From: Dokdonia sinensis
GTDB lineage: Bacteria > Bacteroidota > Bacteroidia > Flavobacteriales > Flavobacteriaceae
Assembly (NCBI RefSeq): GCF_003688895.1
Contig: NZ_REFV01000014.1
Location: 1-64,000 of the forward strand
Length of the DNA: 64,000 nt
Direction: 5' to 3'
The translations under genes were made by a program, and so were the position numbers. Position 1 is the stretch's first letter, and each line of letters begins with the position of its first letter. This document shows, piece after piece, positions 2,902 to 63,119 of this stretch. A model generated the notes under the pieces. It was not told where the DNA came from. It saw only the letters and a list, made by a program, of their open reading frames with translations, and made no database searches.

Positions 2902-5358
2902 ATGAAACAATTTCTATTTTTTACAATGCTGTTATTGTGTCTCGCCAGTTGCGAGACCCCAGAGACAACAGACTCATCATTAACACGATATATTCCTCGC
3001 AAGGCAGCGGTCATCATAAAAACCGAAGACCCAAAAGCGCTCGCCACATCGTTAAAAAACAATAATTTCATCACCGCAATGGATGCCACTGCGCTTTCCA
3101 CATTTGTGGCAAAGCAACAGGCTTTTATAAATGAAACTACCATTGACGGGGAAACACTCTTTTGCTACACTCCTGTAGGAAGAAATGAATATGAAGTGAG
3201 TATCATTACTGAAGCGACCGCCTCACTTTTTAAAAATGACAGTCTTGCCCTCACGACCGATAAAGGCAAAATAAAAAAGACATCATCAGTTGAAAATCCT
3301 CTGTTTTATCTTATTGAAAATGAGGCAGCTATTTTCAGTAGTTCTCAATTGCTCCTGGAAAATGTAATACGAGAGCGCAAGGAGAAAGTTGTGCAAGATG
3401 AAGTGTTTCATCGAGCTTATGATGCAACAAGTAGTAATGCAATTGCGAGTATACTATTACGTGGAGAGGCCGGAGCAACGGTATGGCGCAATATTTTTCC
3501 AGAAGCAAGAAACGCACCGCTGGATAATGCTTTCAGTTGGCTCTCTGCAGATATTGACTTGAATGAAAACGACATCGTTTTAAGCGGTGTTGCCATTTCC
3601 CAAGACTCGATAGGCCTAAAACTCGAACTCCTCAAAAACACCCAACCCGTTCCCAACCGTATAGCGGAGATCACTCCACTTTCGGCATTGAGTGTTTCGG
3701 CGGTTACGCATCGGGACTGGGGAACATTTAAGGACAATCAGGCGCTTTTTCAGAAGCGGGATGCGGTGAAGTTCAATATAGACCAGGAAGAAGTCTTTAA
3801 CACATTTCAAGAAGTTGGGATGATACATTTGCCAGAGAGTATTGTCGTTATAGGTGTTTCGGGAGATGTGACATTAACAGAAGGAGCGCTGGCGGGCAAT
3901 GATATGATCACCACTTTTCGGGATATTGAGATACGTGAGATGGGTGCTAAGGCCGCTTTCGCGAAAGCGTACAAACCCCTACTCCCTTTACCAGAAGTTA
4001 CTGTGTTTTGTAACGTGGATGACTTTTTCATTTTTGGCGAAAACCAGACCGCACTCGAAACTATCATTGCAAACTACCAAAATAACGCGACCCTTGCCAA
4101 AAGTGAGACTTACCAAAATACTGCGCGCAGACTCAGTAGTGCAGCCAGTTATTTGCACGTGGAAATCTTAGGAAATGGACATTACAAATCGTGGGTCTCT
4201 GACGATGGAAGGAAAAAACTAAGCAGTGCAAAGCTGGATGCCTATCCGTATCTCGCTACCCAACTTGTGCAGGAGCGGGATTTTATGCATTTTAACTTTG
4301 TACTTAATCAAAATGAAGCTCCCGCAGCCGCAGGAGCCGTGAGTCAAATTGCAAATGTGAAACTCAATGCAGATATCACAATGTCACCGCAGTTAGTAAA
4401 AAATCATCGTACCAAAGGGATGGATATCGTCGTGCAGGATATTAATAATACGCTTTACCTCATCAGCAATGTAGGGAAAGTGTTGTGGCAAAAGGAACTT
4501 GACGGACAGGTTAAAGGAGATGTCCAGCAGGTAGATTTATATCGCAATGGCAGATTACAACTGGCCTTTGTGACGGATAAAACATTTTATATTTTAGATA
4601 GAAATGGAAATGAAATAAAACCTTTCCCGCTAAGTTTTAAAGACCCGATCACCCAACCTCTTGCAATTTTTGACTACGAGAATAATCGTAATTATCGTTT
4701 TGTGATTGTTCAAAATGATGAAGTATTGATGTACGACAAAAAAGCAGAACCTGTAACTGGATTTAAGTTCTCCAAAGCCGAAAGCGAAGTTATTTTCCCT
4801 CCCAAACATATCCGCCTTGCAAACAAAGATTACATCGTGATTGCCACAAATAGTGGAAACGTCAATATCCTGAGCCGCACCGGAAAATCTAGAATCGAGG
4901 TGGAACAGAAAATTAATTTGGGCGATACGCCTCTCTTTGATGACGGAAATAATTTCCTGACTTATACCGTAAATGGAGATAAAATTGCTATCTCACAATC
5001 TGGAAAGATTACAGAAAATGCAACTGATATCGGGTCTGACGCCACGATACTTATAGATGGTAGAACGACCGTTTCTATGAGAGAGAATGACTTGAGAATA
5101 AAAGGTAAAAAGGTAGAACTTCCCTTTGGCACCTACAGCAAACCTGTACTTGCTACCGTGGGTAAATCCGAATATGTCGGATTTACAAATGTCGAGGCCA
5201 AAGAAGTGTTTCTCTACAACTCTAAAGGAGAACCTCTGGAAAATCTTCCAGTTTACGGTATCTCAAAACCTAGTCTAGGTTATTTAGAGCGCGGGAAGAG
5301 TTTTGGCTTTGTGACGCAGGGTGATGCGAGTTCCATATTAATTTATAAGGTGAATTAG
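2902..5358 (+). CDS. Large lipoprotein, DUF3352-like N-terminus and propeller-like C-terminus
   Basis: I place the start at the ATG at 2902 (818 residues) because it begins directly with a lipoprotein signal, MKQFLFFTMLLLCLASC, with Cys17 as the lipidated residue. Reading from the TTG at 2878 would bury this signal. The N-terminal half (for example PRKAAVIIKTEDPKAL) resembles DUF3352-type proteins. From about residue 490 on there are repeated short beta motifs (such as NNTLYLISNVGKVLWQKEL and KTFYILDRNGNEIKPF) suggesting a PQQ/WD40-like propeller. A perfect copy of the dispersed palindrome is read as AFAKA at about residues 352-356. Same strand as rnhB, 97 bp downstream. Function unknown; envelope location inferred. 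Confidence 0.75.
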   Translation: MKQFLFFTMLLLCLASCETPETTDSSLTRYIPRKAAVIIKTEDPKALATSLKNNNFITAMDATALSTFVAKQQAFINETTIDGETLFCYTPVGRNEYEVSIITEATASLFKNDSLALTTDKGKIKKTSSVENPLFYLIENEAAIFSSSQLLLENVIRERKEKVVQDEVFHRAYDATSSNAIASILLRGEAGATVWRNIFPEARNAPLDNAFSWLSADIDLNENDIVLSGVAISQDSIGLKLELLKNTQPVPNRIAEITPLSALSVSAVTHRDWGTFKDNQALFQKRDAVKFNIDQEEVFNTFQEVGMIHLPESIVVIGVSGDVTLTEGALAGNDMITTFRDIEIREMGAKAAFAKAYKPLLPLPEVTVFCNVDDFFIFGENQTALETIIANYQNNATLAKSETYQNTARRLSSAASYLHVEILGNGHYKSWVSDDGRKKLSSAKLDAYPYLATQLVQERDFMHFNFVLNQNEAPAAAGAVSQIANVKLNADITMSPQLVKNHRTKGMDIVVQDINNTLYLISNVGKVLWQKELDGQVKGDVQQVDLYRNGRLQLAFVTDKTFYILDRNGNEIKPFPLSFKDPITQPLAIFDYENNRNYRFVIVQNDEVLMYDKKAEPVTGFKFSKAESEVIFPPKHIRLANKDYIVIATNSGNVNILSRTGKSRIEVEQKINLGDTPLFDDGNNFLTYTVNGDKIAISQSGKITENATDIGSDATILIDGRTTVSMRENDLRIKGKKVELPFGTYSKPVLATVGKSEYVGFTNVEAKEVFLYNSKGEPLENLPVYGISKPSLGYLERGKSFGFVTQGDASSILIYKVN
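3954..3969. repeat. Dispersed 16-bp palindrome, in-gene copy (AFAKA frame)
   Basis: Perfect CGCTTTCGCGAAAGCG inside the large lipoprotein gene, read as A-F-A-K-A without disturbing the frame. Confidence 0.95.
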
Positions 5359-5454
5359 CAATATTGTAACACACATCTGTTACGATAGGCACAGCGTTAA
5401 GTCATTGGTATTGTAATAATTACTACATTTAACTGGCATTTATATTAACACCCT

Positions 5455-8471: not shown

Positions 8472-8487
8472 CGCTTTCGCGAAAGCG
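8472..8487. repeat. Dispersed 16-bp palindrome, intergenic copy
   Basis: Perfect CGCTTTCGCGAAAGCG between the two TTGTTACAT pairs in the leader of the kelch operon. Confidence 0.95.
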
Positions 8488-10301: not shown

Positions 10302-10360
10302 GGTGGTTGAGTGATTTTAAACGAAGCGACAGCGCAGTTTAAAATTGTATCGAAACTACC
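10302..10360. repeat. 59-bp imperfect inverted repeat (long hairpin)
   Basis: GGTGGTT at 10302-10308 pairs with AACTACC at 10354-10360 (one wobble), and ATTTTAAAC (10314-10322) pairs perfectly with GTTTAAAAT (10337-10345). The loop reads GAAGCGACAGCGCA. It lies 33 bp before the ATG of the OmpA-family gene. Confidence 0.65.
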
Positions 10361-10392
10361 GAAACCAAAAACACACATTAAATAAACTCATT

Positions 10393-11682
10393 ATGAAAAC
10401 ACAAAAATTAATCTTGTTGCTATTGCTCATCTTCAGCTTTTCGGGAGTGCAGGCACAATTACTTAAAAAACTAGGGAAAGCAGCCGAAAAGGCAGCCAAA
10501 CGAACAGTGGAACGTCGCGTCGAAAAGGAAACCGAAAAGAAAACAGATGCCGGTCTGGACAGCATTTTTGACCGAAAGAAAGACCGTAAAAAGAAGAAAA
10601 GAGATAAAAGAAAAAAGAGCAATGACAAGGATAACGGTAGTCCCATTATAGGCAATGCACCACAACCCGACACTCCAACATATGAAGTAGCACGTGCATC
10701 AGACTTTACACCTGGAAATGTTGTGATTTTCGAAAACTCCTTCGTCACCGAAAATCAAGGAGATTTTCCAGCCCGATGGGATACGAATGGGAGTGGTGAA
10801 ATCGCACTGGTTAACGGAGAAAAATGGCTTCGTCTAGGCGGAAATTCTAAATATCTCCCGATGCTAGATCAGCGTCTTCCAGAAAATTACACCATCGAGT
10901 TTGACTTACTAACACAAGGACTAGATGGGAAGACGAGTTCTCAGGCAATGTTCACGTTACTGCTAGAAGACAACACTGGTTTTCAAAAATCTAAAGACTG
11001 GTGTATGGTTGAACTTTCACCCTGTCAGTTCATAGAATCTCAAGGTGTTGTAGAGAAGGTAGAAAATGGAAAGCGCATCATACGCAATAAGATTGGAAAG
11101 GACTATAGAGAGGCCATTAACGGCAAATCTCACATCGCAATTGCTGTGAACAAAACACGTATTCGGGTGTGGATGAATGAAAATAAATTGGTCGATGTCC
11201 CCAGACTTGTCCCATCGGCGGCAAATGTATTTAAAATGCATACCCGCAGTCTACGCGATGCCGCTGGGATGGACGAACTCTATATCGCAAACTTTAAAAT
11301 GGCAAAAACAGGAGAAGACAACCGTAGTAAGCTTATTACCGAAGGCCGTTTATCCACAAACGCAATCCTTTTTGAATCTGGAAGTGATGTTTTAAAGGAC
11401 AGCTCTTTTGGCGTGATACGGGATCTGGTCAAGGTGCTGGAGGAAAATCCTGATGTCAACATCAAGATTATAGGTCACACTGATGCAGATGGGCCTGAGG
11501 ATGGAAATGTTACGCTTTCGCGAAAGCGGGCAAACGCAGTAAAAAAGTCGATGACCCTTCAATATGGTATAGCCACCACCCGCATCACTACCGACGGGAT
11601 GGGCGAAAGCCAGCCAGTAGCCCCAAATGATACTGAGTCTGGAAAAGCCCAAAACCGTCGCGTAGAATTTGTGAAGCTGTGA
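10393..11682 (+). CDS. OmpA-family outer-membrane protein
   Basis: I start at the ATG at 10393 (429 residues), where a signal peptide begins (MKTQKLILLLLLIFSFSGVQAQ); 16 extra upstream codons give no signal. After cleavage comes a very basic Lys/Arg-rich segment (about 30-80; DRKKDRKKKKRDKRKK), a beta-rich middle domain of unknown type, and a C-terminal OmpA domain (about 320-429) with NAILFESGSDVL, IIGHTDADG and QNRRVEFVKL, which binds peptidoglycan. The conserved LSxxRA of OmpA domains is here encoded by a perfect dispersed palindrome (TLSRKRA) with no length change. Confidence 0.85.
   Translation: MKTQKLILLLLLIFSFSGVQAQLLKKLGKAAEKAAKRTVERRVEKETEKKTDAGLDSIFDRKKDRKKKKRDKRKKSNDKDNGSPIIGNAPQPDTPTYEVARASDFTPGNVVIFENSFVTENQGDFPARWDTNGSGEIALVNGEKWLRLGGNSKYLPMLDQRLPENYTIEFDLLTQGLDGKTSSQAMFTLLLEDNTGFQKSKDWCMVELSPCQFIESQGVVEKVENGKRIIRNKIGKDYREAINGKSHIAIAVNKTRIRVWMNENKLVDVPRLVPSAANVFKMHTRSLRDAAGMDELYIANFKMAKTGEDNRSKLITEGRLSTNAILFESGSDVLKDSSFGVIRDLVKVLEENPDVNIKIIGHTDADGPEDGNVTLSRKRANAVKKSMTLQYGIATTRITTDGMGESQPVAPNDTESGKAQNRRVEFVKL
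11513..11528. repeat. Dispersed 16-bp palindrome, in-gene copy (TLSRKR frame)
   Basis: Perfect CGCTTTCGCGAAAGCG within the OmpA domain, exactly at its conserved LSxxRA helix. Confidence 0.95.
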
Positions 11683-11686
11683 TGAA

Positions 11687-11735
11687 GATGGAAGATGGAA
11701 GATGGAAGATGGAAGATGGAAGATGGAAGATGGAA
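11687..11735 (+). repeat. 7-bp minisatellite, GATGGAA x 7
   Basis: Seven perfect consecutive GATGGAA units starting 5 bp after the OmpA-family stop codon, plus a partial unit at each edge. Length variation here would not touch coding sequence. Confidence 0.9.
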
Positions 11736-11821
11736 GATGTGTAAGAATTAAAAATAAACTGAGGTGGATGAGAATTCCGCCTTTGCAGAAATGACAATTG
11801 AATATTTAAAACTCAAAAATT

Positions 11822-13695: not shown

Positions 13696-13739
13696 AAAAA
13701 AAAATAAAAACAATGAATCAAAAACAAAAACTAAAAATT

Positions 13740-14342: not shown

Positions 14343-14358
14343 CGCTTTCGCGAAAGCG
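14343..14358. repeat. Dispersed 16-bp palindrome, intergenic copy
   Basis: Perfect copy starting 3 bp after the beta-barrel gene's stop codon and just before the third GACGTAGGAC element. Could double as a weak terminator. Confidence 0.95.
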
Positions 14359-18509: not shown

Positions 18510-20204
18510 ATGCAACTGTCAGAACAAGAACAAGTACGCCGTCAAAAATTATCCCGCTTGCGCGAAATAGGAATCAACCCCTATCCAGCAGCGCTATATC
18601 CTGTTACTCACGCTTCCGCGAAAGCGAAAAAAGACTACTCCGAAGGTGAAAAGGTAGTAATGGCAGGACGTTTAATGTCGCGACGCATACAGGGAAATGC
18701 CTCCTTTGCCGAAATACAGGACGGAGAGGGACGCATACAGGTATATTTTAATCGCGACGAAATCTGCCCTGGAGAAGATAAGTCTAAATACAATGAGGTT
18801 TATAAAAAACTCCTAGACATAGGAGATTTTATAGGCATCGAAGGTGAAATGTTCACTACAAAAGTGGGCGAAAAGACCGTAATGGTAAAAAACTTCACCC
18901 TCCTGAGCAAATCCTTAAAACCACTACCATTACCTAAAACTGATGCCGAGGGAAATACCCACGACGGCTTTGTAGATGCAGAGATGCGCTATCGCCAGCG
19001 TTATGCAGACCTTGTGGTCAATCCGCACGTGAAGGAAGTTTTTGTAAAGCGCACAAAGCTTTTTAATGCGATGCGTAGCTTCTTTAACGAAGCTGGTTAT
19101 TTTGAGGTTGAAACGCCTATTCTCCAGCCTATCGCTGGAGGTGCTGCCGCGCGTCCTTTTGTGACTCACCACAACTCGCTGGATATGCCATTATATATGC
19201 GTATTGCGAATGAACTTTACCTCAAACGACTCATCGTGGGAGGTTTTGAAGGAGTTTATGAGTTCTCAAAAAACTTTAGAAATGAAGGGATGGATCGTAC
19301 GCACAATCCAGAGTTCACAGCGATGGAAATCTATGTAGCTTACAAGGACTACAACTGGATGATGGAGTTTTGTGAGCAATTGCTCGAGCATTGCGCGCTT
19401 GCCGTAAATGGCAAAACTAAGGCGACTTTTGGGAAGTACGAAGTAGATTTTAAAGCACCTTATGCCCGTGTTACGATGGCAGACAGCATAAAGCATTTTA
19501 CAGGTTTTGATATCCTAGAAAAAACCGAAGATGAGATACGCACCGCCGCACAAGAGATGGGTATCGAAGTTGACCAGACTATGGGCAAAGGGAAACTTAT
19601 AGATGAGATTTTTGGCGAGAAGTGTGAGGGAAATTATATCCAGCCTACGTTCATTACGGACTATCCTAAAGAAATGTCCCCGCTATGTAAAGAACACCGC
19701 GATAATCCAGAACTTACAGAACGTTTTGAGCTTATGGTATGTGGTAAAGAGATTGCAAATGCCTATTCAGAACTTAACGACCCGATAGACCAGCGCGAGC
19801 GTTTTGAAGCACAGCTTGAACTGGCAAAACGTGGTGATGACGAGGCTACCGCCTCTATAGATTATGATTTCTTGCGTTCCCTAGAATACGGAATGCCTCC
19901 TACTTCTGGAATGGGTATCGGGATGGATCGTCTTATTATGTTCCTTACCAATAACCAGTCTATACAAGAAGTGCTATTCTTCCCACAGATGAAACCTGAA
20001 AAGAAAGCGCTAGACCTTAACGAAAACGAAAAAGTCATTTATGACCTCCTTAAAAAGGAAAGCCCACAAGAACTTGGCGCACTTAAAACAGCTACTGGAT
20101 TAAGTAATAAGGGCTGGGATAAAGGAATAAAAGGACTAACGAAGTTAGGAGCTGCAAAGGTTTCTAAAACGGATGACGGATTGTTTGTGGCAAAGGCAGA
20201 GTAA
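18510..20204 (+). CDS. lysS: Lysyl-tRNA synthetase (class II)
   Basis: 564 residues from the ATG at 18510 (MQLSEQEQVRRQKL), preferred because the -7 box lies upstream of it and the N-terminus fits the family. Contains the OB-fold anticodon-binding domain (RIQGNASFAEIQDGEGRIQV), class II motif 2 (FRNEGMDRTHNPEFTAMEIY) and motif 3 (GMGIGMDRLIMFL). About 65 residues follow motif 3's end (NENEKVIYDLLKKESPQELG to the C-terminus), giving an enzyme longer than the roughly 505 residues of E. coli LysS; the tail looks like a small helical, winged-helix-like module. A one-mismatch dispersed palindrome is read as ASAKAKK near residue 37. Confidence 0.95.
   Translation: MQLSEQEQVRRQKLSRLREIGINPYPAALYPVTHASAKAKKDYSEGEKVVMAGRLMSRRIQGNASFAEIQDGEGRIQVYFNRDEICPGEDKSKYNEVYKKLLDIGDFIGIEGEMFTTKVGEKTVMVKNFTLLSKSLKPLPLPKTDAEGNTHDGFVDAEMRYRQRYADLVVNPHVKEVFVKRTKLFNAMRSFFNEAGYFEVETPILQPIAGGAAARPFVTHHNSLDMPLYMRIANELYLKRLIVGGFEGVYEFSKNFRNEGMDRTHNPEFTAMEIYVAYKDYNWMMEFCEQLLEHCALAVNGKTKATFGKYEVDFKAPYARVTMADSIKHFTGFDILEKTEDEIRTAAQEMGIEVDQTMGKGKLIDEIFGEKCEGNYIQPTFITDYPKEMSPLCKEHRDNPELTERFELMVCGKEIANAYSELNDPIDQRERFEAQLELAKRGDDEATASIDYDFLRSLEYGMPPTSGMGIGMDRLIMFLTNNQSIQEVLFFPQMKPEKKALDLNENEKVIYDLLKKESPQELGALKTATGLSNKGWDKGIKGLTKLGAAKVSKTDDGLFVAKAE
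18611..18626. repeat. Degenerate copy of the dispersed palindrome in lysS
   Basis: CGCTTCCGCGAAAGCG, one mismatch to the consensus, in the AFAKA frame (reads ASAKA). Confidence 0.7.
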
Positions 20205-22894: not shown

Positions 22895-23278
22895 ATGAAA
22901 ACTAAAAATCAAATCATCTTTGACGGAGAATGCAATCTTTGTAATGGTGTAGTAGGATGGCTGCTTAAGTTTGCTCCTAAGCAATATTTTGAGTTTATAC
23001 CCTTTCAATCTCCTAAAGGACAACAAATTCTTTTAAAAATCGGAAAATCTACCGAGCAATTGGATACTGTTATACTCATAGACCCCGATGGATATCACAC
23101 CCATAGCGATGGTTTTCTCAGAATTGTTTCAAAAATCCCTAGGTGGCAACGAGTCGCCGCATTACTTGCATTTATTCCGAGAATGTTTAGGGACTACGTT
23201 TATCGCACGGCTTCACGCAATCGAGTTAGATGGTTTGGAAAGTCTAAAACCTGTACTATAAATTTACAACGCCCCTAG
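22895..23278 (+). CDS. DCC family (DUF393) thiol-disulfide oxidoreductase
   Basis: 127 residues. Opens with IIFDGECNLCNGVVGWLL, which carries the family's DGxCxxC motif; the CxxC is the putative redox pair. Later blocks (EFIPFQSPKGQQIL, YRTASRNRVRWFGK) fit the family too. No signal peptide, so probably cytoplasmic. Its TAG stop and the TAG stop of the convergent remB gene share the same CTAG tetranucleotide (overlap 23275-23278). The 283 bp upstream are AT-rich and show no gene. Confidence 0.85.
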   Translation: MKTKNQIIFDGECNLCNGVVGWLLKFAPKQYFEFIPFQSPKGQQILLKIGKSTEQLDTVILIDPDGYHTHSDGFLRIVSKIPRWQRVAALLAFIPRMFRDYVYRTASRNRVRWFGKSKTCTINLQRP

Positions 23279-25431
23279 TAATCATAATACCAATTGAACA
23301 AATCTGTTCTAAAACCAAAATTCACCCAAACTGTATTTGTATCAAAGGTCATAGCTGTTTGCGTCTCCGCCTTAAAATCTCTAAAGATAGGATTAACATA
23401 CACTTTTAGATTTGTAGCTGGATTAAGCAAGTAACCTAATTCTAAATCTGCATAAAAGGAGTCTACTCTGTTTCCTTGAAAGAATTCAATACCCTCATCA
23501 CTTGGTCTATTTTCATCGTTTCCATAAATGCTTCCGCCAAAGTAGGTCTCATCTATATCCCCTATTTCAAAACCTCTGGTTCCTAAGATAATTTTTGCGC
23601 TTCCGTACCACCTCTCATTTTCGTAACGCGCAATCGCAATGGCCTCTTTAAAATTTGCGCCCCATTGGTGTGCTAGTGATTGATTATTGTGTCCGTAATT
23701 GAGTTGTATCTCATTATTAGAATATACGTACGGCCGGACCTGATTGTACTCTGCTTGTAAGGTCAAATTTGGAACACCAAAGGCGTCGTAGTATTTAACT
23801 CCTACTTGGAATCCTTGTTTGTTTTTATAGCTCTGGTTACCGCTAAAAACATCTGCTCCAGAAAACTCATCTATGACGATTTGACCATAAGCATTAACAC
23901 TATTACTGAACTTGTATTTTCCAGTAAGTCCTATTAAGGCATTACCACCTCTAGAACCTGTGGAGAACTCAATCGCACGATAAAAAATAACTGGGTTTAG
24001 ATAATTAAAATCAAACCCACGACCATTATCATTCTCCCAAATTACAGACTCAAAAAGACCAATGTTAAGTCGTTTTGAAACGTTGTAACTCAAATAATGG
24101 TTAGCCATATACTTTGCACGAAAGGAACCATCTTCTACCACTTCTGGTCTCACGTCTCTTAACGACGTCCAAGTATTTGTGTATTTTATTTTCCAGAAAG
24201 AGGTATTTAACTTTATAAAAGGGAAATAACTTGAATTATCGCTTAAAAGTAGCGATCGGTATCCGTCTCCCACAAATTGCTTACCATGCCCTAGCTGAAT
24301 ATTAAAAAATGAGCTTGGTGTATATGATACGTAACCTTCTGCAGCAGGGTAGTCAAAATCTCCATTTCGCCCCTCTTTTGCGATTCCACGTCCCGGGATG
24401 ATGGCCGGATTTCCGCCGTCAGGTCTCAAGGATATTGCGAAGTCATTGTAGTATTGCGCAAAGCGTCCTTGACTTTCATAAACCGCAGCAAAAAAATTAA
24501 GTTTTTTCCCGAGTCCTCCTTGCACAAAGACTGCTCTTGTGTTATTATAAGTGTAATCGTTTACTTTATTCTCATCAGTTTCATACCCTAACTGTAGGTC
24601 TGCAGCGGGGTCTAACGTAAACCAATAGCCGTCACCCTGCACGCGTAGCATATGCTCGTCAAAGAATTTTCGACCCAACCACGATTTTCGATTTTTGGAA
24701 AGCGCATTTGCCTTTTCTTCGAAGTTATAATATGGATTTACGGTTTCGTATAAAAATGGCTTACTTCCCGTGTGACTGTTTGTACCTACTCGATTTAATT
24801 GCGCATCAAAACGGCTATAGACTTGATGCGAGAAAGGAATGTTCAACTGGCTCGCATATTTATTTTGCCTATTAAATTCTTGATTTTTAATAGCATCATA
24901 TTCTTCGTCTAGCGCATTGAGTTTAGTTGCTGCTGGTAATGTTGTGTCGGTTTTTAGTATTGGGGGTTCCGCTTTCGCGAAAGCGGACTCATCCTCATTT
25001 TTATACGTACCAATTACATTCCTATCTAACGGTATCTTAACAGGCATCGTAAATTGCATATATGCCGGCTCCGAATTATAGGTCGCGTGCTCAATTTTAG
25101 GAAGAGCATCAAAAACGGTTTGCATAGCATCCTTAAGCTCTTGATATACTGCCTCGGTGTGGAGTAGTTTAAATGCTCCTTTTTTAGTCACTTCAAAAAG
25201 TACAACCATCTGACCATCGTATTGCTCCTCAGTCACCTTTTCTGGCACTTCCAGATTGTTTACTACAAAAGAAATAAGTGTCTGGTTAAAACATTCTGGC
25301 AACTGTGCAATTGGGGTAGTTTTACACTCTGGGAAAACGGGATACTTTTCATAGTCGCTCAACGTGACCTGACTCATTAGTGTAGGTGCTATAAAATAAG
25401 CAAATAGAAGGAATAGGGATGTGCGCATCAT
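23275..25431 (-). CDS. remB: RemB-like gliding-motility protein with N-terminal TonB-CTD-like domain
   Basis: 718 residues with a signal peptide (to about residue 20). Residues about 30-135 (YPVFPECKTTPIAQLPECF ... PVKIPLD) closely echo the C-terminal domain of the two TonB proteins encoded just upstream: FPxC, a second Cys, a GxxxVxFxVxKxG strand pair and a final P-I-x-P/F strand. From about residue 200 the protein is an outer-membrane beta-barrel (YWFTLDPAADLQLGYE ... VWVNFGFRTDLFNWYYDY). This size and layout match proteins annotated as RemB in flavobacteria; the name is from memory and moderately certain. A perfect dispersed palindrome reads AFAKA at about residues 150-154. Confidence 0.65.
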   Translation of the reverse strand: MMRTSLFLLFAYFIAPTLMSQVTLSDYEKYPVFPECKTTPIAQLPECFNQTLISFVVNNLEVPEKVTEEQYDGQMVVLFEVTKKGAFKLLHTEAVYQELKDAMQTVFDALPKIEHATYNSEPAYMQFTMPVKIPLDRNVIGTYKNEDESAFAKAEPPILKTDTTLPAATKLNALDEEYDAIKNQEFNRQNKYASQLNIPFSHQVYSRFDAQLNRVGTNSHTGSKPFLYETVNPYYNFEEKANALSKNRKSWLGRKFFDEHMLRVQGDGYWFTLDPAADLQLGYETDENKVNDYTYNNTRAVFVQGGLGKKLNFFAAVYESQGRFAQYYNDFAISLRPDGGNPAIIPGRGIAKEGRNGDFDYPAAEGYVSYTPSSFFNIQLGHGKQFVGDGYRSLLLSDNSSYFPFIKLNTSFWKIKYTNTWTSLRDVRPEVVEDGSFRAKYMANHYLSYNVSKRLNIGLFESVIWENDNGRGFDFNYLNPVIFYRAIEFSTGSRGGNALIGLTGKYKFSNSVNAYGQIVIDEFSGADVFSGNQSYKNKQGFQVGVKYYDAFGVPNLTLQAEYNQVRPYVYSNNEIQLNYGHNNQSLAHQWGANFKEAIAIARYENERWYGSAKIILGTRGFEIGDIDETYFGGSIYGNDENRPSDEGIEFFQGNRVDSFYADLELGYLLNPATNLKVYVNPIFRDFKAETQTAMTFDTNTVWVNFGFRTDLFNWYYDY
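24970..24985. repeat. Dispersed 16-bp palindrome, in-gene copy (AFAKA frame)
   Basis: Perfect copy in the linker between the TonB-like domain and the barrel of the RemB-like protein (ESAFAKAEPP). Confidence 0.95.
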
Positions 25432-28083: not shown

Positions 28084-28099
28084 CGCTTTCGCGAAAGCG
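28084..28099. repeat. Dispersed 16-bp palindrome, sprA-gcvH gap
   Basis: Perfect copy 15 bp after the sprA stop codon and 37 bp before the gcvH start. Confidence 0.95.
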
Positions 28100-36337: not shown

Positions 36338-36353
36338 CGCTTTCGCGAAAGCG
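36338..36353. repeat. Dispersed 16-bp palindrome, ruvA-maeB gap
   Basis: Perfect copy in the 231-bp gap between the maeB stop and the ruvA start; both genes run on the minus strand, and the maeB terminator lies 32 bp away. Confidence 0.95.
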
Positions 36354-38798: not shown

Positions 38799-39743
38799 TT
38801 AATTAATATCCAATAATTGAGTGAGTAGATCTACATTTTGAGGCAATCTGCCCACGTTTTGAAGCTTTATTGCCGCTAGGGATAATGCAATTTTCAGACA
38901 TCGTTCCAGCTCAAAATCTTTAGAATATGCAAATAAGAATCCGCTCCAGAAGGCATCTCCTGCTCCCGTTGCGTCTAAGATTTTATCAACTCTTGCGGCG
39001 GGTAGCGAAATGTTTTCTTCACGCTTTCGCGAAAGCGTAACCCCATCCTTCCCTAACGTTAAACAGACTATATCCACATTCATCTCATTATGGAAAAAGT
39101 CAAAAATTTCCTGATGGCTCTTCCTCTTGCCAAACAAGCGCTCCATATCATCCTCACTTACTTTTACAAGGGGATTGTAAGAGCAATATTCTTTAAAAGA
39201 CTGAAGCGCCTGATCTCGGTCAGGCCAAATACGGGGGGAATAATTAAGGTCAATACTTAGGGTACATCCTGCTTTTGAGGCTTCCTTAGCTTTTGCCAGT
39301 ATCGTTGCGCGTGCTGGATTCTTGCTCATTGCAAAAGCAGTCGTATGAAATAGTTTTGTACGCTCTAAAATTTCTTTTGGGATTTGAGACGGCACAATAT
39401 GAACGTCTGCCTCTCGATAAGGAATAAAGTCTGGGGTACCCGTTGTTTTAGAAACCATAATGATACTTGTAGGCCTCTGGTCAAAACGGACTAGTGATAT
39501 ATCGACGTTGTTTTCTTTAAGTTTTTCCTTTACATAATCACCAAAACCATCTTTTCCCACAGTACTTGCTAATCTCACATTCATTCCCAATCGTGCCATA
39601 TTCATCGCAACGTTAGTAGGGCTTCCACCCAAATATCGGTGGTAATCCCGCGTTTGATCGATGCGCGCGTCTACCTCGTGACCTATAAAGTCTATTAAGG
39701 TTTCTCCTATACAAAGGATGTCTATTTGTCTTTCTTTGCTCAC
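38799..39743 (-). CDS. PfkB-family sugar kinase (fructokinase-like)
   Basis: 314 residues. Carries the two PfkB signatures: GGSPTNVAMNMARLG (about 39-53) and DATGAGDAFWSGF (about 262-274; D of GAGD is the catalytic base). Phosphorylates a hexose or similar polyol/nucleoside; substrate is not fixed by sequence, but the neighbouring trehalase and transporter point to a sugar. A perfect dispersed palindrome is read as VTLSRKREE just before the ATP-binding region; the length of this segment is normal for the family, so it replaced rather than added residues. Its start is 14 bp downstream of the trehalase stop: same operon. Confidence 0.85.
   Translation of the reverse strand: MSKERQIDILCIGETLIDFIGHEVDARIDQTRDYHRYLGGSPTNVAMNMARLGMNVRLASTVGKDGFGDYVKEKLKENNVDISLVRFDQRPTSIIMVSKTTGTPDFIPYREADVHIVPSQIPKEILERTKLFHTTAFAMSKNPARATILAKAKEASKAGCTLSIDLNYSPRIWPDRDQALQSFKEYCSYNPLVKVSEDDMERLFGKRKSHQEIFDFFHNEMNVDIVCLTLGKDGVTLSRKREENISLPAARVDKILDATGAGDAFWSGFLFAYSKDFELERCLKIALSLAAIKLQNVGRLPQNVDLLTQLLDIN
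39022..39037. repeat. Dispersed 16-bp palindrome, in-gene copy (TLSRKR frame)
   Basis: Perfect copy in the PfkB-kinase gene. Confidence 0.95.
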
Positions 39744-39757: not shown

Positions 39758-41638
39758 TTAAAACAATTCATCGGGAGATAACAGCGCCTCCAGCTTCTTT
39801 CTCAAGTCTGGAGATAGCAACGTAAGCCCGTACTGATAACTAGCGTTCATCCAGCCAAAACCGCTGGTGGTAATGTAGTCAAACTCGGTTCCTACGTTTC
39901 CATACTCTGCAAACACCTTGTGGGTGGTGGCTACCACATCGTATTTCTCTGGGATGACTCCGTTATAATCTACAGCATTTCTGGTAATCATCCAGAGCCA
40001 GCGATAGACGAGTTCCTGTGTTTCTTTTTCAAATCCAAATTGTAGCAAACCGCGCCAGACCATCATTTGATGCGGTGCCCAGCCGTTAGGATAATCCCAT
40101 TGTCGTTGGGGTCCTTTGTACGCAAACTCGTCATTCATTTTTCTGGACGTTCCTGCGATGCCCCCTTTTTCTTTGAGCTGTGCCATCAAAGTATCTTTCA
40201 TTGCCGAGGCCTGATCTTGAGTGCACAGTCCAGCCCAGAGCGGGAAATAATTGGAAGCACTTTCAAAATGAGTCTGCTCCTGCTTCTTAAAATTATAGTC
40301 AAAGTATTGTCCCTGCTCCTCATTCCACATCAGCGTATTCATCCTTTTTTTGCGCTCAGAAGCCTTGCTCATAAAAAAATCGCTTGACCTCCCCTGAAAT
40401 GCCCCGTTAAAATAGGTGTCCACGAGATACGCAAAATCCACTTCATATTTATAGAGCAGGCTGTTCAAATCTACTACATTAAGGTCTGCACATACATCAT
40501 CCAGTCGCCACGAGGTGTCGTGACCACTCTCACGTAAACTTCGGTCGTGGGTAAAATAGGCGTCCAGTTCGGGAACGGAGATGGTTCCGTTTTGATAAGC
40601 TTCGGCAAAGGTCCGTATTGTGAAGGGTTGGTGAATGTTTTGTTTTTTTGAGTACGCTTTCGCGAAAGCGGCCAACACCTCATCAAAATGACCTTCCTCT
40701 GTCTCTGGAGGGATACCGATGCCTTGGGCATAATACCGATTGAGTCCATTTTGCGTAAGCCGAACTCCCCGCTCCATCCAGACTGTCTCGTATTCTTTTA
40801 TCGCAATGGCCAAAACTTGGGAGAGCCATACTTTACCTATCTCTGGGTGCGTACTATAGACTTCTCTTATAAATGAAGTCAAGAACGGTGGCTGGGTGCG
40901 CGTGAGGTAATAGCTTCGGTTTGCATTTAGGATTTTACCGTAATGTTGAATTTGATAACAAAAATTATCTATCATTGCTTTGGCGAGGTCCACGCGACCG
41001 TCCAGTAACAGTCCCACACCTTCAAAGTAGCTGTCCCAGCCGTACATCTCGTTAAACCTCCCGCCGGGTACGACAAAGGGCACTCCACTCTCATTTTCAA
41101 GGGCAAGCGCGAGGATTCCGGGCTTGTCGTTTATGGATTTTACGTATTCTGGGGTGATATTTTCGGGAAGCACCACGACTTCGAGATTGGGAAATGTGGT
41201 TGTGAGACTCTTGTAATAAGAAATTCCCTGCTCATCTGTAGCGGGTACGTAAAGTCGTTGTACGGTATCCTGCGCCTTTGAATCCGTCAGTATTTTTTCT
41301 ATTCCTTTTTTATCTATGGTGCGGGTGAGGTCGTCCCAAAAATAATCCTTAATCATCCGAGATATCCGATTAGTAGGGCTTTCCTCTATTTTTGACAGGG
41401 GAATGACTGCTTCTGTTTTACCCAGTGCTTTTTCCAGCGCGAGTTCCTGTAAGAAATTGGATAAATGGTGGGTGCCTTTTATGATGTGTTTTTCTGCTTT
41501 GGTTAAAGCGTTATCATAAACCGTAATCTCAAAAGCTTTGGGACCCGTATCGTCTATCGTGATTTTCTTGTCTCCATCTGTATCCTCCTGCGCCAGTAGT
41601 TGCTGGAGTGTGGTTTCTATGTTACCCTTGAACTGCAT
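39758..41638 (-). CDS. treF: Cytoplasmic trehalase (GH37 family)
   Basis: 626 residues. Both GH37 signatures are present: PGGRFNEMYGWDSYFEG (about 190-206) and QWDYPNGWAPHQ (about 513-524), plus an RxxRESGHDTSWRL block (about 365-380) that carries the catalytic acid. Hydrolyses trehalose to two glucose. No signal peptide, so probably cytoplasmic (symbol treF by analogy, not certain). The N-terminal ~120 residues are an extension not typical of E. coli TreF. A perfect dispersed palindrome reads AAFAKAYS at about residues 323-328. It overlaps the upstream MFS gene by 17 bp and is followed by the PfkB kinase: an import-hydrolysis-phosphorylation operon. Confidence 0.9.
   Translation of the reverse strand: MQFKGNIETTLQQLLAQEDTDGDKKITIDDTGPKAFEITVYDNALTKAEKHIIKGTHHLSNFLQELALEKALGKTEAVIPLSKIEESPTNRISRMIKDYFWDDLTRTIDKKGIEKILTDSKAQDTVQRLYVPATDEQGISYYKSLTTTFPNLEVVVLPENITPEYVKSINDKPGILALALENESGVPFVVPGGRFNEMYGWDSYFEGVGLLLDGRVDLAKAMIDNFCYQIQHYGKILNANRSYYLTRTQPPFLTSFIREVYSTHPEIGKVWLSQVLAIAIKEYETVWMERGVRLTQNGLNRYYAQGIGIPPETEEGHFDEVLAAFAKAYSKKQNIHQPFTIRTFAEAYQNGTISVPELDAYFTHDRSLRESGHDTSWRLDDVCADLNVVDLNSLLYKYEVDFAYLVDTYFNGAFQGRSSDFFMSKASERKKRMNTLMWNEEQGQYFDYNFKKQEQTHFESASNYFPLWAGLCTQDQASAMKDTLMAQLKEKGGIAGTSRKMNDEFAYKGPQRQWDYPNGWAPHQMMVWRGLLQFGFEKETQELVYRWLWMITRNAVDYNGVIPEKYDVVATTHKVFAEYGNVGTEFDYITTSGFGWMNASYQYGLTLLSPDLRKKLEALLSPDELF
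40655..40670. repeat. Dispersed 16-bp palindrome, in-gene copy (AFAKA frame)
   Basis: Perfect copy in the trehalase gene, preceded by a T-run on the plus strand. Confidence 0.95.
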
Positions 41639-45005: not shown

Positions 45006-45021
45006 CGCTTTCGCGAAAGCG
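45006..45021. repeat. Dispersed 16-bp palindrome, downstream of rodA
   Basis: Perfect copy 9 bp past the rodA stop codon, next to a run of As/Ts; on the minus strand it is preceded by a T-run and could act as a terminator. Confidence 0.95.
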
Positions 45022-50709: not shown

Positions 50710-50725
50710 CGCTTTCGCGAAAGCG
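50710..50725. repeat. Dispersed 16-bp palindrome, purH-mreB gap
   Basis: Perfect copy 34 bp after the purH stop and 100 bp before the mreB start (minus-strand sense), preceded on the plus strand by GTTTTTA. Confidence 0.95.
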
Positions 50726-54649: not shown

Positions 54650-55750
54650 TTAAGCTTTTACATCCAGCGCATCCCTAAGCGCATTCCCTACAAGCATAAA
54701 TGCCATTACCAGCAACATAATCGCCAGCCCTGGAATCACGGCGAGATACGGCTTACCTAAAATAATATAACTGTAGTGATCCTTAATCATTGCACCCCAG
54801 CTGGGCATAGGCGGTTGTGCCCCAATCCCGAGAAAGCTTAGCCCACTCTCAATTAGGATTGCACCAGCAAAGTTTGCGGCTGAGATTACAATGAGCGGTG
54901 CCATTACATTAGGCAAAATATGTCTTCTTATAATTCTAAAATCTGTGTAACCTAAAGCCCTTGCAGCAGTTACATATTGCATCTGTTTTACCCCCAGCAC
55001 CTGCCCTCTTACCACGCGAGCGACCTCCACCCACATTGTAAGTCCTACGGCTATAAATACTTGCCAAAAGCCTTTCCCTAAAGCAAGCGTAATCGCAATG
55101 ACCAGTAATAAAGTAGGAATAGACCAAGTGACATTAATAAGCCACATAATCGCAGCATCTACCTTACCGCCAAAATAACCTGCAAATGCACCTAACAAAA
55201 CTCCTATAAGTAGTGATATAAAAACGGCCACAAATCCTATAACGAAGGATATTCGAGCTCCTACAAGCATTCTGCTCAATAGGTCACGACCATATTTATC
55301 TGTTCCTAGATGGAACTTTTTTGTTTTTAAATACGCTTTCGCGAAAGCGTTATAATCATCCACACCATCTAACTCCAGACGTTTAGGCATTCCTAAAGCG
55401 TCTGCTCCAGTGTACGGAACATACTCTAAGAAAATATCATCAAACCTATAGCTGGCGATGGGAATTTCTGTATCCCCGTTTTTCTTCCCAAAAAATAGTG
55501 CCGAAAAGGCTGACTGATCTACAACATCAGGTGCGGGAATGGTAAGCATCTGCACTTGAAAGCCTGGTGGTTGAGAATGGATAGATAGATGCATCTGATT
55601 AGCATTCTGACTATCATCAGGGGCAATTGCATAGGCAAATAGTGCCACTAACCCACAAATTACAATAAAGCTCAAACTCAAAACGCCCCAAAAATTCTTT
55701 TTAAACTTTTGGAGCGCTAGTTGAGTTAATGAATTGGGCGTTTGCGCCAT
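54650..55750 (-). CDS. ABC transporter permease, DppC/OppC family
   Basis: 366 residues with about six hydrophobic helices. The inner-membrane loop signature for ATPase contact, AARALGYTDFRIIRRHILPN, and FLGIGAQPPMPSWGAMI identify the peptide/nickel permease family. An unusually long segment (about 60-130) separates helix 1 from the rest and holds a perfect dispersed palindrome, read AFAKAYLK at about residues 137-141. No DppB, ATPase or binding-protein gene is adjacent, so partners are elsewhere. Confidence 0.88.
   Translation of the reverse strand: MAQTPNSLTQLALQKFKKNFWGVLSLSFIVICGLVALFAYAIAPDDSQNANQMHLSIHSQPPGFQVQMLTIPAPDVVDQSAFSALFFGKKNGDTEIPIASYRFDDIFLEYVPYTGADALGMPKRLELDGVDDYNAFAKAYLKTKKFHLGTDKYGRDLLSRMLVGARISFVIGFVAVFISLLIGVLLGAFAGYFGGKVDAAIMWLINVTWSIPTLLLVIAITLALGKGFWQVFIAVGLTMWVEVARVVRGQVLGVKQMQYVTAARALGYTDFRIIRRHILPNVMAPLIVISAANFAGAILIESGLSFLGIGAQPPMPSWGAMIKDHYSYIILGKPYLAVIPGLAIMLLVMAFMLVGNALRDALDVKA
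55334..55349. repeat. Dispersed 16-bp palindrome, in-gene copy (AFAKA frame)
   Basis: Perfect copy in the DppC-like gene, in its long N-terminal loop. Confidence 0.95.
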
Positions 55751-58983: not shown

Positions 58984-58998
58984 GCACATTAATAACTC

Positions 58999-61011: not shown

Positions 61012-61088
61012 AATTAAACTAGTAAAAATTCACTATCTTCAACTTACCATAAATAAACTGCCCCCTCCAGTCGAAAATAGCGTTTCAA

Positions 61089-63119
61089 GTGCATCGGTTA
61101 AATTTTGCAGTCTTATTGATTTTACTTGGCTTAATTGCTGGGATTGTTTGTAGTCCTTACTTTCAAGTGACTTCCCTAGTTGCTGGCGGCCTTTGTATTC
61201 TTTCGCTTTTAGCTCTAGTCGTGATTCACATATGGCATAAGCGCAGTGATATCGCTAGTATTCCATTTTTATTCTCGGCCATAGCCTTGAGCTTTTTTAT
61301 CGGGACGTTTGCCACCGCAATTCACAACCCGCTATTGCAGGAACACCATTATGTTCATAAAGCAGACTCCCTCGACCATACGGTTCATTTAAATATTGTC
61401 GAGAAACTCAAACCCTCTGCCTATCAGGATAAGTTTGTGGGCAGGGTATTACTTATGGATAGCAAAACCGTTACGGGCAAAGTTCTTTTAAATGTTTCTA
61501 AGGATTCACTCGCGCCGTCTCTTCGTGTGGGCGATAATGTTGTCCTGAGCAGTGCAATTGAGCCTGTCCCTAAACCTCGTAGTCCGTATCAGTTTGACTA
61601 CGGAAAATACTTAAAATCGCGCCATATTTATGGACAGATGCGCGTGAGTAACGATGATATTTATAAACTGGGCGCTTCCTCTGGAAATATGTTGCTATTG
61701 TGGGCATCCCGCTTTCGCGAAAGCGTACAACAAACCCTTCAATCCTATCCATTTTCCGACCGCCAACTAGCCATTATAAATGCCCTATTTCTAGGGCAGC
61801 GCCAGGATATAGATAAGGAAATGAGCAGTCAGTATGCAGCGGCGGGAATGATGCACATCCTTGCTGTTTCTGGACTGCACGTGGGGATTATATTTATGCT
61901 CTTGAAAGTTCTCACAAAACCATTAGACCGAAAGAAGTGGAGGTGGCTACGCTCTCTGATGATTATCACTGCCATCTGGGCATTTGCGACAATCACAGGA
62001 CTGTCGCCATCTGTAATGCGAGCGGCGACAATGTTTACATTTCTCGAGATTGGAACCATCTGGGGCGGAAAGAGAGCGAGCCCTAACGCACTTATTTATT
62101 CGGCATTATTGCTCTTACTTATTGATCCCAATTTGATTTACCACGTAGGGTTTCAATTGAGCTATCTTGCCGTGGCAGCTATCTTGTGGGTTCAACCATG
62201 GTTATTCGGGTTTTGGAATCCCCGCAATTATGTGCTTCGTATATTGTGGGGTACCGTTACCGTTACCACTGCCGCACAGCTGGGTGTCGTCCCAGTGAGT
62301 CTTTTTTATTTTCATCAGTTTCCGGGACTATTTTTACTTTCGAACATTGCGATATTACCATTGCTCACTTATCTCCTGAGTGTTGGAATAGTTGTGATTG
62401 TTTTGGCGATTTTAGGCTGGCTTCCTGATTCGTGGGCGCAGGGTTTTGGCAGCGCTATCGATGCTCTGAACAATTTTATAGCCTGGGTGGCGCGACAGGA
62501 ATCTTTTGTCATTCAGGATATCACGATAGGTATTTTTGTATTGCTTAGTTCCTACGTACTCATTGTCTGTGTTGTGACTGTACTGAAAAAATACAGTTAC
62601 GGTAAACTTATGTTATGCGGTATTTCAATAGTGCTTTTTGTGAGCGCCACACTATACGAGCGCTCCTTAATGCCTGAGGACCATTTTGTCATCTTTCAAC
62701 AATCGCGAGGGAGTCTTTTCGGAAAGCTACAGCACAATGAAATGACACTTTACAGCAACGACACTACGTATGACGCCTCAAAAGATTATAAAGTAAAGAG
62801 TTACAGACAAGCGTTAACTCTTCATTCGGCAAGAGTGGATACGCTTTTTAATGCTTTTCGCTTTAAGCGAAATAAAATATTGCGCATCGATAGTTTAGGA
62901 ATTTACGGTGTCCCTAACCTAGTTCCAGACTACATCGTACTTACGGAATCCCCTAAAATTAATCTAACTCGATTACTAAACTATTTTCCAAATGCTACAG
63001 TTATAGCTGACGGTAGCAACTATCGCTCTTATGTTGAACTATGGGAAGCCACCTGTCGTAAAAGAAAAATCCCTTTTCATAGCACGTATGAAAAGGGAGC
63101 TTTTGTAATTTATGAGTAG
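61089..63119 (+). CDS. comEC: ComEC/Rec2-type DNA-uptake channel protein
   Basis: 676 residues. The frame is open back to a TAA at 61050 and the only start-like codon in between is the GTG at 61089, so GTG is the start. Order: N-terminal helices and a DUF4131-like OB domain (to about 190), the polytopic Competence domain with its signature HILAVSGLHVGIIFMLL (about 257-273), and a C-terminal region (about 530-676) shaped like a degenerate metallo-beta-lactamase domain but without the HxHxDH motif. Moves single-stranded DNA across the inner membrane. A perfect dispersed palindrome reads RFRES at about residues 208-212. Confidence 0.9.
   Translation: MHRLNFAVLLILLGLIAGIVCSPYFQVTSLVAGGLCILSLLALVVIHIWHKRSDIASIPFLFSAIALSFFIGTFATAIHNPLLQEHHYVHKADSLDHTVHLNIVEKLKPSAYQDKFVGRVLLMDSKTVTGKVLLNVSKDSLAPSLRVGDNVVLSSAIEPVPKPRSPYQFDYGKYLKSRHIYGQMRVSNDDIYKLGASSGNMLLLWASRFRESVQQTLQSYPFSDRQLAIINALFLGQRQDIDKEMSSQYAAAGMMHILAVSGLHVGIIFMLLKVLTKPLDRKKWRWLRSLMIITAIWAFATITGLSPSVMRAATMFTFLEIGTIWGGKRASPNALIYSALLLLLIDPNLIYHVGFQLSYLAVAAILWVQPWLFGFWNPRNYVLRILWGTVTVTTAAQLGVVPVSLFYFHQFPGLFLLSNIAILPLLTYLLSVGIVVIVLAILGWLPDSWAQGFGSAIDALNNFIAWVARQESFVIQDITIGIFVLLSSYVLIVCVVTVLKKYSYGKLMLCGISIVLFVSATLYERSLMPEDHFVIFQQSRGSLFGKLQHNEMTLYSNDTTYDASKDYKVKSYRQALTLHSARVDTLFNAFRFKRNKILRIDSLGIYGVPNLVPDYIVLTESPKINLTRLLNYFPNATVIADGSNYRSYVELWEATCRKRKIPFHSTYEKGAFVIYE
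61710..61725. repeat. Dispersed 16-bp palindrome, in-gene copy (RFRES frame)
   Basis: Perfect copy in comEC, in the third reading frame of the palindrome. Confidence 0.95.

Follow-up and report, generated by a model that had tools for sequence, protein, structure and literature searches.

Words that are kept hundreds of times per genome usually betray a DNA-reading machine, and Chi, KOPS, matS and the uptake sequences are examples. Known Chi words are short, asymmetric and one-directional, and GT-rich islands surround Chi in E. coli. Noc and MatP sites are used for chromosome organisation. Known uptake words are, to our knowledge, non-palindromic. New DNA uptake sequences can abruptly replace unrelated sequence (PMC2397512, in excerpt). 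HIPs are present at 1000–2000 copies per Mb and most have at least 75% G+C, with one exception at 50% (Elhai, 2015, PMC4390886, in excerpt). RecA prefers TGG repeats (PMC3763553, in excerpt).

The 16-bp perfect palindrome of Dokdonia described here is symmetric and longer than the Chi, KOPS, matS and uptake words known to us. Its behaviour resembles that of a signal word under selection, intermediate between uptake sequences, Chi and HIP1, and for each of these three it lacks one or more of the features tested. Its even spacing and frequent long retention point to an undescribed genome-wide DNA signal. No published description of the palindrome or its 14-mer was found in PubMed Central, where subscription papers are mostly absent. 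The carrier genus Dokdonia has cultured strains and several single-contig genomes.

The palindrome and its copies

The window, i.e. the whole stretch of DNA analysed, is 64 kb in length. The first-pass annotation had reported 13 identical copies of the palindrome in it, far above chance, and all were recovered at exactly the positions reported; the expectation for the exact 16-mer is 3e-6 to 9e-6 per 64 kb (Markov orders 1–4, palindromes masked), i.e. below 1e-5. Near-copies comprise two sites with one mismatch (2473 and 18611) and one with two (20219). Matches at two or fewer mismatches average 0.01 per shuffle in 100 dinucleotide shuffles of the window. The sites are as follows; strand is entered as a dot throughout.

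2473..2488, strand., outer-base variant CGCTTTCGCGAAAGCA with the 14-bp core intact
3954..3969, strand., exact palindrome within ORF 2878-5358 (+), read AAFAKA
8472..8487, strand., exact palindrome, intergenic, 212 bp past the stop of ORF 5455-8259 (+)
11513..11528, strand., exact palindrome within OmpA-family ORF 10345-11682 (+), read TLSRKR
14343..14358, strand., exact palindrome, intergenic, 3 bp past the stop of ORF 13713-14339 (+)
18611..18626, strand., one-mismatch copy CGCTTCCGCGAAAGCG, mismatch within the core
24970..24985, strand., exact palindrome within ORF 23275-25431 (-), read SAFAKA
28084..28099, strand., exact palindrome, intergenic, 15 bp past the stop of SprA ORF 28115-35626 (-)
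36338..36353, strand., exact palindrome, intergenic, 93 bp past the stop of malic-enzyme/phosphotransacetylase ORF 36447-38726 (-)
39022..39037, strand., exact palindrome within PfkB ORF 38799-39743 (-), read TLSRKR
40655..40670, strand., exact palindrome within trehalase ORF 39758-41638 (-), read AAFAKA
45006..45021, strand., exact palindrome, intergenic, 9 bp past the stop of RodA/FtsW-family ORF 45031-46290 (-); no spanning alignment
50710..50725, strand., exact palindrome in the purH-mreB spacer, 34 bp past the purH stop
55334..55349, strand., exact palindrome within OppC-type permease ORF 54650-55750 (-), read NAFAKA
61710..61725, strand., exact palindrome within ComEC-family ORF 61089-63119 (+), read RFRESV

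Six copies are thus intergenic and seven lie in open reading frames, as had been noted. The intergenic enrichment is also found in a larger collection of 329 site records, of which 148 fall between genes, compared with an intergenic share of about 8.5% of that DNA according to a mechanical ORF caller, and 181 are within genes, in all three frames. Intergenic sites between same-direction genes are often found shortly after a stop codon.

The unit of the palindrome is a 14-bp core, GCTTTCGCGAAAGC, with an outer base preference of C>T>A; the G+C content of the word is 62.5%. A 464-kb sample gives a peaked mismatch spectrum, with 112 exact sites, 34 with one mismatch, seven with two and 20 with three, and numbers at four to six mismatches are at background level. 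Single mismatches fall in the outermost base in 59 of 74 cases, and these single-mismatch sites, mostly outer variants, display the same flank signature as exact sites. On each strand, about 20 bp on the 5′ side of the site are C-poor and G/T-rich (GGG, GTG, GTT and GGT abundant, CCC and CAC scarce), and the 3′ side is A/C-rich rather than T-rich. The T-rich left flank of the first-pass annotation survives in part: the sites have a symmetric pattern of about 20 bp with G and T prevailing on the left and A and C on the right, but the literal GTTTTTA is found only before 50710. The signature is weaker in genome G230 (C 0.162 versus 0.04–0.09 elsewhere). The first two stretches of G230 are also higher in G+C. 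Flanks within genes give a hint of three-base periodicity, which is unconvincing between genes.

The palindrome is a genome-wide element, as had been proposed, and the counts contradict both of the refuting outcomes named in the first-pass annotation. The whole Dokdonia source genome has 630 exact copies and none of a reversed control, and each of the 17 other Dokdonia genomes searched has 138–711. Its density is about 173 exact copies per Mb, or 251 per Mb as the 12-mer core. Two further genera of the family sample carry 153–579 copies; elsewhere in the samples the palindrome is rare. In most sampled genomes there is one core per approximately 3–7 kb. In an unrooted tree of AddB and one neighbour, Dokdonia, g11 and G116 come together at 0.954; inner support is weak and the placement of G230 unsettled. 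No palindrome dispersed in like manner was found in 14 stretches (18.8–20 kb) from 14 other genera, a survey that left out six further stretches only 1.0–2.8 kb long. One of the sampled loci (L240) has a palindrome six times, but within a 273-bp tandem array, and another (L242, from G085) has a dispersed 12-mer, not a palindrome, in 12 copies on the same strand. The Dokdonia palindrome is useful as a lineage tag too: copies occur at fixed spacing on a metal-resistance-type island of other genera.

Spacing, conservation and gain of sites

Spacing is most regular in the single-contig genome G016, which has 704 sites. Across 20 stretches of 20 kb placed at even intervals along this chromosome, only one exact pair lies less than 1 kb apart compared with 19.4 expected, and 14-mer pairs at this distance number six compared with 31.8. 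The coefficient of variation (CV) of spacing is 0.52 versus 0.90 ± 0.07 for random placement, a value as low being reached in none of 4000 simulations. Each of these stretches has two to eight exact copies, and there is no gross regional exclusion. The regularity is weaker elsewhere (P 0.010 in G017, 0.026 in the window and 0.032 in G230) and is not significant in G013 (0.19). Deletion between close repeats might alone produce the spacing rule, but the depletion of close pairs extends towards 2 kb.

Positions of the palindrome are conserved beyond their flanks. Where flank identity is 0.6–0.7, 65% of 309 pairs, which are non-independent, are intact. Sites of G016 are intact in nine of 10 alignments with G003 (5.6 expected at the flank rate) and in five of nine with G008 (0.05 expected). 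The conservation among relatives that the first-pass annotation had singled out for checking is nevertheless far from complete, as G016 sites are intact in 2/7 cases in G011, 3/7 in G017 and 2/4 in G000. Of 17 other Dokdonia species aligned over the purH-mreB site of the window (50710), 12 have it intact at the corresponding position. The PfkB site at 39022 differs by one base in 12 of 15 aligned Dokdonia species and by at least five in the other three, and the trehalase site at 40655, in a length-variable stretch, is intact in three of 10. Three g11 genomes that were checked lack the purH-mreB site and two of them have their own site inside purH; a fixed address therefore seems not to be needed.

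The clearest gain is that of an in-gene site of G017: all 11 species compared have a site-less orthologue that aligns to it with no net length change, and in three of them the alignment is gap-free. Of in-gene pairs whose second species is site-less (at least five mismatches), 33 of 53 differ in local length. Where relatives have a single copy, G014 has a gene flanked by two degenerate ones.

A possible DNA-processing mark and its rivals

The explanation tentatively favoured is that of a lineage-specific word whose double-stranded form is read by a putative protein that is symmetric and probably dimeric, the word's likeliest role being perhaps that of a two-sided mark for DNA processing or recombination. 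About one core per 3–7 kb would be upheld by selection or biased recombination on the DNA itself. At the palindrome, an end-processing or DNA-import machine coming from either side would stop, be loaded or be recognised, and pairing on each side may use the G/T-rich strand that lies 5′ of the site. The mode would be like that of Chi or of an uptake sequence, yet symmetric, with a word longer than the Chi words known to us. In side and composition, the 5′ flank is of the kind expected to be favoured in RecA pairing that follows a Chi event. The dimeric protein, the DNA-processing role and the link to RecA are what we infer. A narrower version is unlikely: the palindrome would be a Chi-like or self-DNA mark working in both directions, at whose 14-bp core a dedicated dimeric protein halts or loads the end-processing machine both ways, with G/T-rich strands preadapted to RecA. 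If true, a few marine Flavobacteriaceae genera would have a means of recombination or self-recognition that follows a spacing rule of its own (one mark every few kb), and we know of no description of a system of this kind. As regards the favoured explanation, an AddB-sized PF12705 protein is encoded in 25 of 25 genomes, the word-free ones equally, and an AddA-sized gene adjoins addB in six of eight site-rich loci (both identified by size and neighbourhood), with no such neighbour at two g11 loci. Among 15 loci, no gene next to addB is common to all site-rich genomes yet absent in others.

The chief rival, which is possible though hardly probable, is an anchor of nucleoid architecture: a dimeric DNA-organising protein would sit on each palindrome and selection would keep one anchor every few kb, a use like that of Noc or MatP sites but spread over the whole genome. 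The symmetric site with its flanks of about 20 bp on both sides, the regular spacing and conserved positions, the absence of gross regional exclusion among 20 stretches of the G016 chromosome and the lack of a pilus-type ATPase in many site-rich genomes are consistent with this. An anchor does not predict the strand-specific G/T–A/C polarity of the flanks, however, and the 12-bp core nominally holds 24 bits where about 12 suffice to locate 917 sites in 3.65 Mb. In addition, 10 of 10 site-rich genomes tested have a single ParB_N match and no second ParB-family protein. That the word is a classical DNA uptake sequence, under molecular drive through natural transformation of the type-IV-pilus type, is quite unlikely. 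Its spacing fits an uptake tag, one of the roles that the first-pass annotation had listed; spacing, conservation and abrupt gain resemble those of Neisseria (PMC2397512, in excerpt), and the distribution is even, as for the Haemophilus USS (PMC7811141, in excerpt). The window holds a ComEC-family gene, and natural competence with a preference for self DNA is described in Riemerella columbina (PMC7965970, in excerpt). The pilus-type machinery does not fit. A T2SSE (PilB/PilT-type) ATPase scores over the cut-off in five of 13 site-rich genomes (G004, G013, G017, G011 and G281) but not in the other eight (G000, G016, G008, G006, G009, G027, G433 and G230), among them the single-contig G016 with its 704 sites, and a palindromic word is unlike known uptake words.

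A HIP1-type word, kept by an orphan methyltransferase or by mismatch-repair bias on the TCGCGA/CGCG centre, is very unlikely. The palindrome is iterated in both genes and spacers, and methyltransferases have been linked to HIPs (PMC4390886, in excerpt), but in 400 kb of G016 neither centre shows a clear rise outside palindromes: TCGCGA is near expectation (38 versus 30.6) and CGCG below it (356 versus 478.5). A short methylase site would also leave the 14-bp core, the 20-bp flanks and the scarcity of close pairs unexplained. A terminator or hairpin acting at the RNA level, or an operator bound by a transcription factor, is highly improbable. A stem of 6 bp is possible within the core, and many intergenic records lie just past a stop. 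Yet in the 329 records left and right flanks show no covariation or complementarity beyond the first base, and the palindrome is therefore not part of a longer RNA hairpin; the A/C-rich rather than T-rich 3′ side and the 181 records within genes, in all frames, also count against these readings, and near-identical copies are too numerous for an operator. No Rfam match was found in the window at the gathering threshold, and an extended hairpin or RNA element was rejected on this and on the lack of flank covariation. Least probable of all is the self-propagating mini-repeat, REP- or MITE-like, that the first-pass annotation had listed. The many identical copies, the G014 gene flanked by two degenerate copies, the frequent differences in local length and RAYT genes in three of three g11 genomes tested are in its favour. 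It is nevertheless judged unlikely because the clearest gain came without length change, there is no conserved unit besides core and flank preference, and RAYT (PF01797) is absent in G230 and in five of six Dokdonia genomes tested, the exception being G000 with a single match barely over the cut-off. For Dokdonia, a mobile repeat is largely refuted by the RAYT search and the alignments.

Comparison with known systems

The REP/RAYT systems likewise have short palindromes in many copies, but the present word has no larger repeat unit and RAYT is missing in most of the Dokdonia genomes tested. With parS, Noc and MatP-type sites it shares an inverted repeat of 14–16 bp that could bind a dimer; it differs in its hundreds of chromosome-wide copies, in the single ParB of each of the 10 site-rich genomes tested and in half-sites unlike the parS word. 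The HIP1 comparison made in the first-pass annotation holds in part. Both are lineage-specific, iterated perfect palindromes over-represented genome-wide, in genes and spacers. The present word, however, is longer (14–16 bp), several-fold rarer and lower in G+C, so that it falls outside HIPs in copy density and base composition, and it has extended flanks and regular spacing.

Similarities to the Chi of RecBCD/AddAB are the occurrence once per few kb, over-representation, presence in genes and spacers, the 5′ G/T-rich strand and genes that are AddB-like in size and neighbourhood, which word-free genomes have equally; in contrast to the short, asymmetric Chi, the present word is a longer, 16-bp perfect palindrome. 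Neisseria DUS and Haemophilus USS also have at least hundreds of copies, fairly even spacing and conserved orthologous sites. Even spacing with few close pairs is clear in G016, weaker in G017, the window and G230, and not significant in G013, and a pilus-type ATPase is over the cut-off in five of 13 site-rich genomes. Compared with DUS and USS, the Dokdonia word is palindromic, with a core of 14–16 bp and symmetric 20-bp flanks.

Abundance and distribution of the palindrome

All 13 exact copies of the perfect 16-bp palindrome in the Dokdonia sinensis window are real, and they stand far above chance: Markov models with the palindromes masked predict between 3e-6 and 9e-6 copies in 64 kb. The first-pass annotation proposed a genome-wide element and named a whole-genome count as its test. 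The genome (3,647,482 bases in 43 contigs) holds 630 exact copies, or one per 5.8 kb, and 0 copies of a reversed control word; thus the element is not restricted to the window. The window also displays a perfect 7-bp tandem repeat, GAAGATG x8 (11684-11739), directly 3′ of an OmpA-family open reading frame, which could be length-variable.

The word is abundant in relatives too: all 17 other Dokdonia genomes searched have 138-711 exact copies each. In a sample of 397 genomes of the family, 48 have at least one copy and six have more than 100. These six are two Dokdonia (including D. sinensis), three genomes (448-579 copies) of a genus that is probably Nonlabens, the second genus among the matches listed in a scan of named records, and G230, of another genus (153); the remaining 42 have 1-13 copies each. 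The shorter 12-mer core is found 917 times in D. sinensis and 586 times in one probable Nonlabens genome among 395 genomes of the order, where the next highest count is 19; among 148 genomes of the phylum, the next highest after D. sinensis is 10. Thus, within these samples, a few genera alone are rich in the word. An unrooted two-protein tree groups Dokdonia, the probable Nonlabens and G116, a genome with 12 copies (support 0.954); the placement of G230 is not settled by this tree.

Where other genera have few copies, the spacing between copies can be identical in different genomes, as observed in several genera:

Spacings shared between genomes
2446 bp: G118, G348 and G184
933 bp: G118, G127 and G141
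3460 bp: G141 and G324

In the G118 stretch (L110), the one read for gene content, an RND efflux pump and an outer-membrane efflux protein are encoded together with a multicopper oxidase and a P-type ATPase for heavy metals. The fixed-spacing stretches look like a transferred metal-resistance island that brought the word along. Stretches with the palindrome at conserved spacing are L110, L111, L112, L113, L114, L116 and L120, and their hosts are Flavobacteriaceae genera otherwise poor in copies.

A viral collection of 2.9 million contigs, by its own description, was also scanned; 41 stretches on 30 contigs matched the palindrome, and 11 contigs have at least two copies. Six exact palindromes occur in the 37.4-kb phage contig IMGVR_UViG_3300040781_000495 (stretches L203, L220 and L223), whose genes include those for the terminase large subunit, portal/minor-head protein, head protease and major head protein; the terminase and portal genes hold two of the six. 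The palindrome is therefore also present in genes of phages, about as densely as in the host.

Sequence signature, location and spacing

Of the 74 single-mismatch sites in Dokdonia stretches, 59 are altered only at the outermost base, and the flank signature is retained at single-mismatch sites, which defines the inner 14 bp, GCTTTCGCGAAAGC, as the core; with 4-6 mismatches, sites are no more frequent than background. Preference at the outermost base is C>T>A, and G is never found in the Dokdonia and probable Nonlabens samples. Flanks were analysed in a set of 134 sites and in one of 329 distinct site records, in which orthologues with differing flanks count separately. The commonest base directly 5′ of the 16-mer is A, and at the position beyond it T. 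On each strand, C falls to roughly half its background frequency, or lower, at most positions over the 18-20 bp 5′ of the site, at genic and intergenic sites alike. Over the 24-base stretch lying 5′ of the palindrome, GGG, GAG, GTG, GTT and GGT are enriched and CCC and CAC depleted. Left and right flanks of the 329 records show no covariation past the first base. This disfavours a longer hairpin and, at the sequence level, argues for recognition as double-stranded DNA via two independent half-sites.

The palindrome had been described as enriched between genes yet also present inside them, and this holds: by a mechanical open reading frame caller, 148 of 329 site records are intergenic and 181 genic, in DNA that is 91.5% coding. 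Genic sites are read as AFAKA (114), RFRES (45) or LSRK (22). Intergenic records with both neighbours (n=140) comprise 96 same-direction, 26 divergent and 18 convergent spacers; in same-direction spacers, as read from lists, the median distance is ~22 bp to the preceding stop vs ~80 bp to the next start.

Spacing is more regular than random. Over 20 evenly placed stretches of the Dokdonia genome G016, with 2-8 exact copies per 20 kb, there is no gross regional trend in copy number by position along the chromosome. Exact pairs less than 1 kb apart number 1 vs 19.4 expected, and core pairs 6 vs 31.8. The coefficient of variation of spacing is 0.52 vs 0.90 +- 0.07 simulated (0/4000 simulations that low), and copies per stretch are less variable than random (mean 6.45, variance 1.94). 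Regularity is weaker in smaller samples (G017, P = 0.010; the window, 0.026; G230, 0.032; G013, 0.19). Core density ranges from one per 3.1 kb (G016) to one per 8.4 kb (G010, 4 sites), with one per 10.1 kb in G001 and G005 together (6 sites). Among the G016 positions listed (the first 337 kb), the biggest gap between exact copies is 38 kb. It spans two giant genes and has two 12-mer cores, both outside these genes:

L288, 6026-19321: core-free open reading frame of 4431 codons, adjoined by a PorP/SprF-family T9SS gene
L289, 2725-17907: core-free open reading frame of 5060 codons, adjoined by a 318-aa open reading frame, the same size as the PorP/SprF-family gene beside the first

Conservation, gain and loss

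Sites outlast their flanks in aligned Dokdonia. At the flank substitution rate, 5.6, 0.05 and 0.04 intact G016 sites are expected in G003, G008 and G004; 9/10, 5/9 and 4/8 are found. In more distant genomes, 2/7 (G011), 3/7 (G017) and 2/4 (G000) are intact. Among 899 aligned pairs, non-independent, paired by blastn within fetched stretches and with synteny not confirmed pair by pair, the intact fraction is 65% for the 309 pairs with flank identity 0.6-0.7 and 47% for the 233 at 0.4-0.6; 148 further alignment rows, too long or not spanning the site, were left out. Individual window sites vary. At the purH-mreB site (50710), 12 of 17 other species keep the palindrome intact and the remainder show 1-12 mismatches; the pfkB site (39022) has a single-base difference in 12 of the 15 species aligned and a larger one in three; no alignment reached across site 45006.

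A genic site in G017 is one clear gain: relative to site-less orthologues there is no net length change in 11/11 species, and three alignments are gap-free. Where the second species is site-less, 20 of 53 genic pairs have the same length and 33 differ; where the site is kept, 149/279 are without length difference. G014 (L143) bears two degenerate copies at the locus aligned to site 10735 of L130, where G011, G007 and G015 each bear one; the two copies flank a gene, a small open reading frame with, by eye, a lipoprotein-like start. The trehalase stretch around window position 40655 has other short repeat-like inserts in G011, G014 and G017, with the exact palindrome absent there.

The purH-mreB spacer lacks the site in all three probable Nonlabens genomes checked, and two of them have a site inside purH. 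Density rather than a fixed address thus seems to matter.

Candidate functions

Several known identities were rejected. A self-propagating mini-repeat of the REP/RAYT type, one possibility raised initially, is discounted in Dokdonia by a RAYT gene search, which drew a blank in five of six genomes and gave one match just over the cut-off in the sixth; RAYT genes do occur in the probable Nonlabens. A terminator is rejected on flank composition and the lack of flank covariation past the first base, a known RNA family because an Rfam search of the window gave no match at the gathering threshold, and a site for an extra ParB because a ParB-family search gave a single match in each of 10 site-rich genomes. 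The likeness to HIP1 stands as to a genome-wide iterated palindrome, but copy density and base composition are unlike HIP. Separately, a non-palindromic 12-mer, AACAACGTGTAT, is dispersed in 12 copies on a single strand in 18.8 kb of L242 (G085 C1).

The suggestion of a DNA-uptake tag fits the spacing, conservation and abrupt gain, but a PilB/PilT-type ATPase above cut-off is missing in 8 of 13 site-rich genomes, including the single-contig G016. Classical pilus uptake therefore cannot maintain the word in every site-rich genome. The ATPase is patchy among related marine species, being present in G004, G013, G017, G011 and G281. Together with this frequent absence, AddB/AddA-sized proteins and the polarity of the G/T-rich strand lead us to favour, tentatively, a palindrome that would serve as a two-sided mark for DNA processing or recombination. 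An AddB-sized nuclease is found in 25/25 genomes and an AddA-sized neighbour in six of eight site-rich loci, the two without being probable Nonlabens loci; as support, AddAB presence is non-specific. GT-rich islands reportedly surround E. coli Chi. RecA prefers TGG repeats (PMC3763553), and the 5′ G/T-rich strand on both sides has the orientation predicted if RecA were loaded following a Chi-type event. A nucleoid anchor ranks just after, as the main rival, and the choice of a two-sided mark over it is one that we infer.

Neisseria uptake sequences are reported to show even spacing that matches conversion-tract length, conservation and abrupt gain (PMC2397512), and Haemophilus USS are likewise described as evenly distributed (PMC7811141). 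Like the former, the palindrome is evenly spaced, conserved and abruptly gained, and like the latter, it is evenly distributed.
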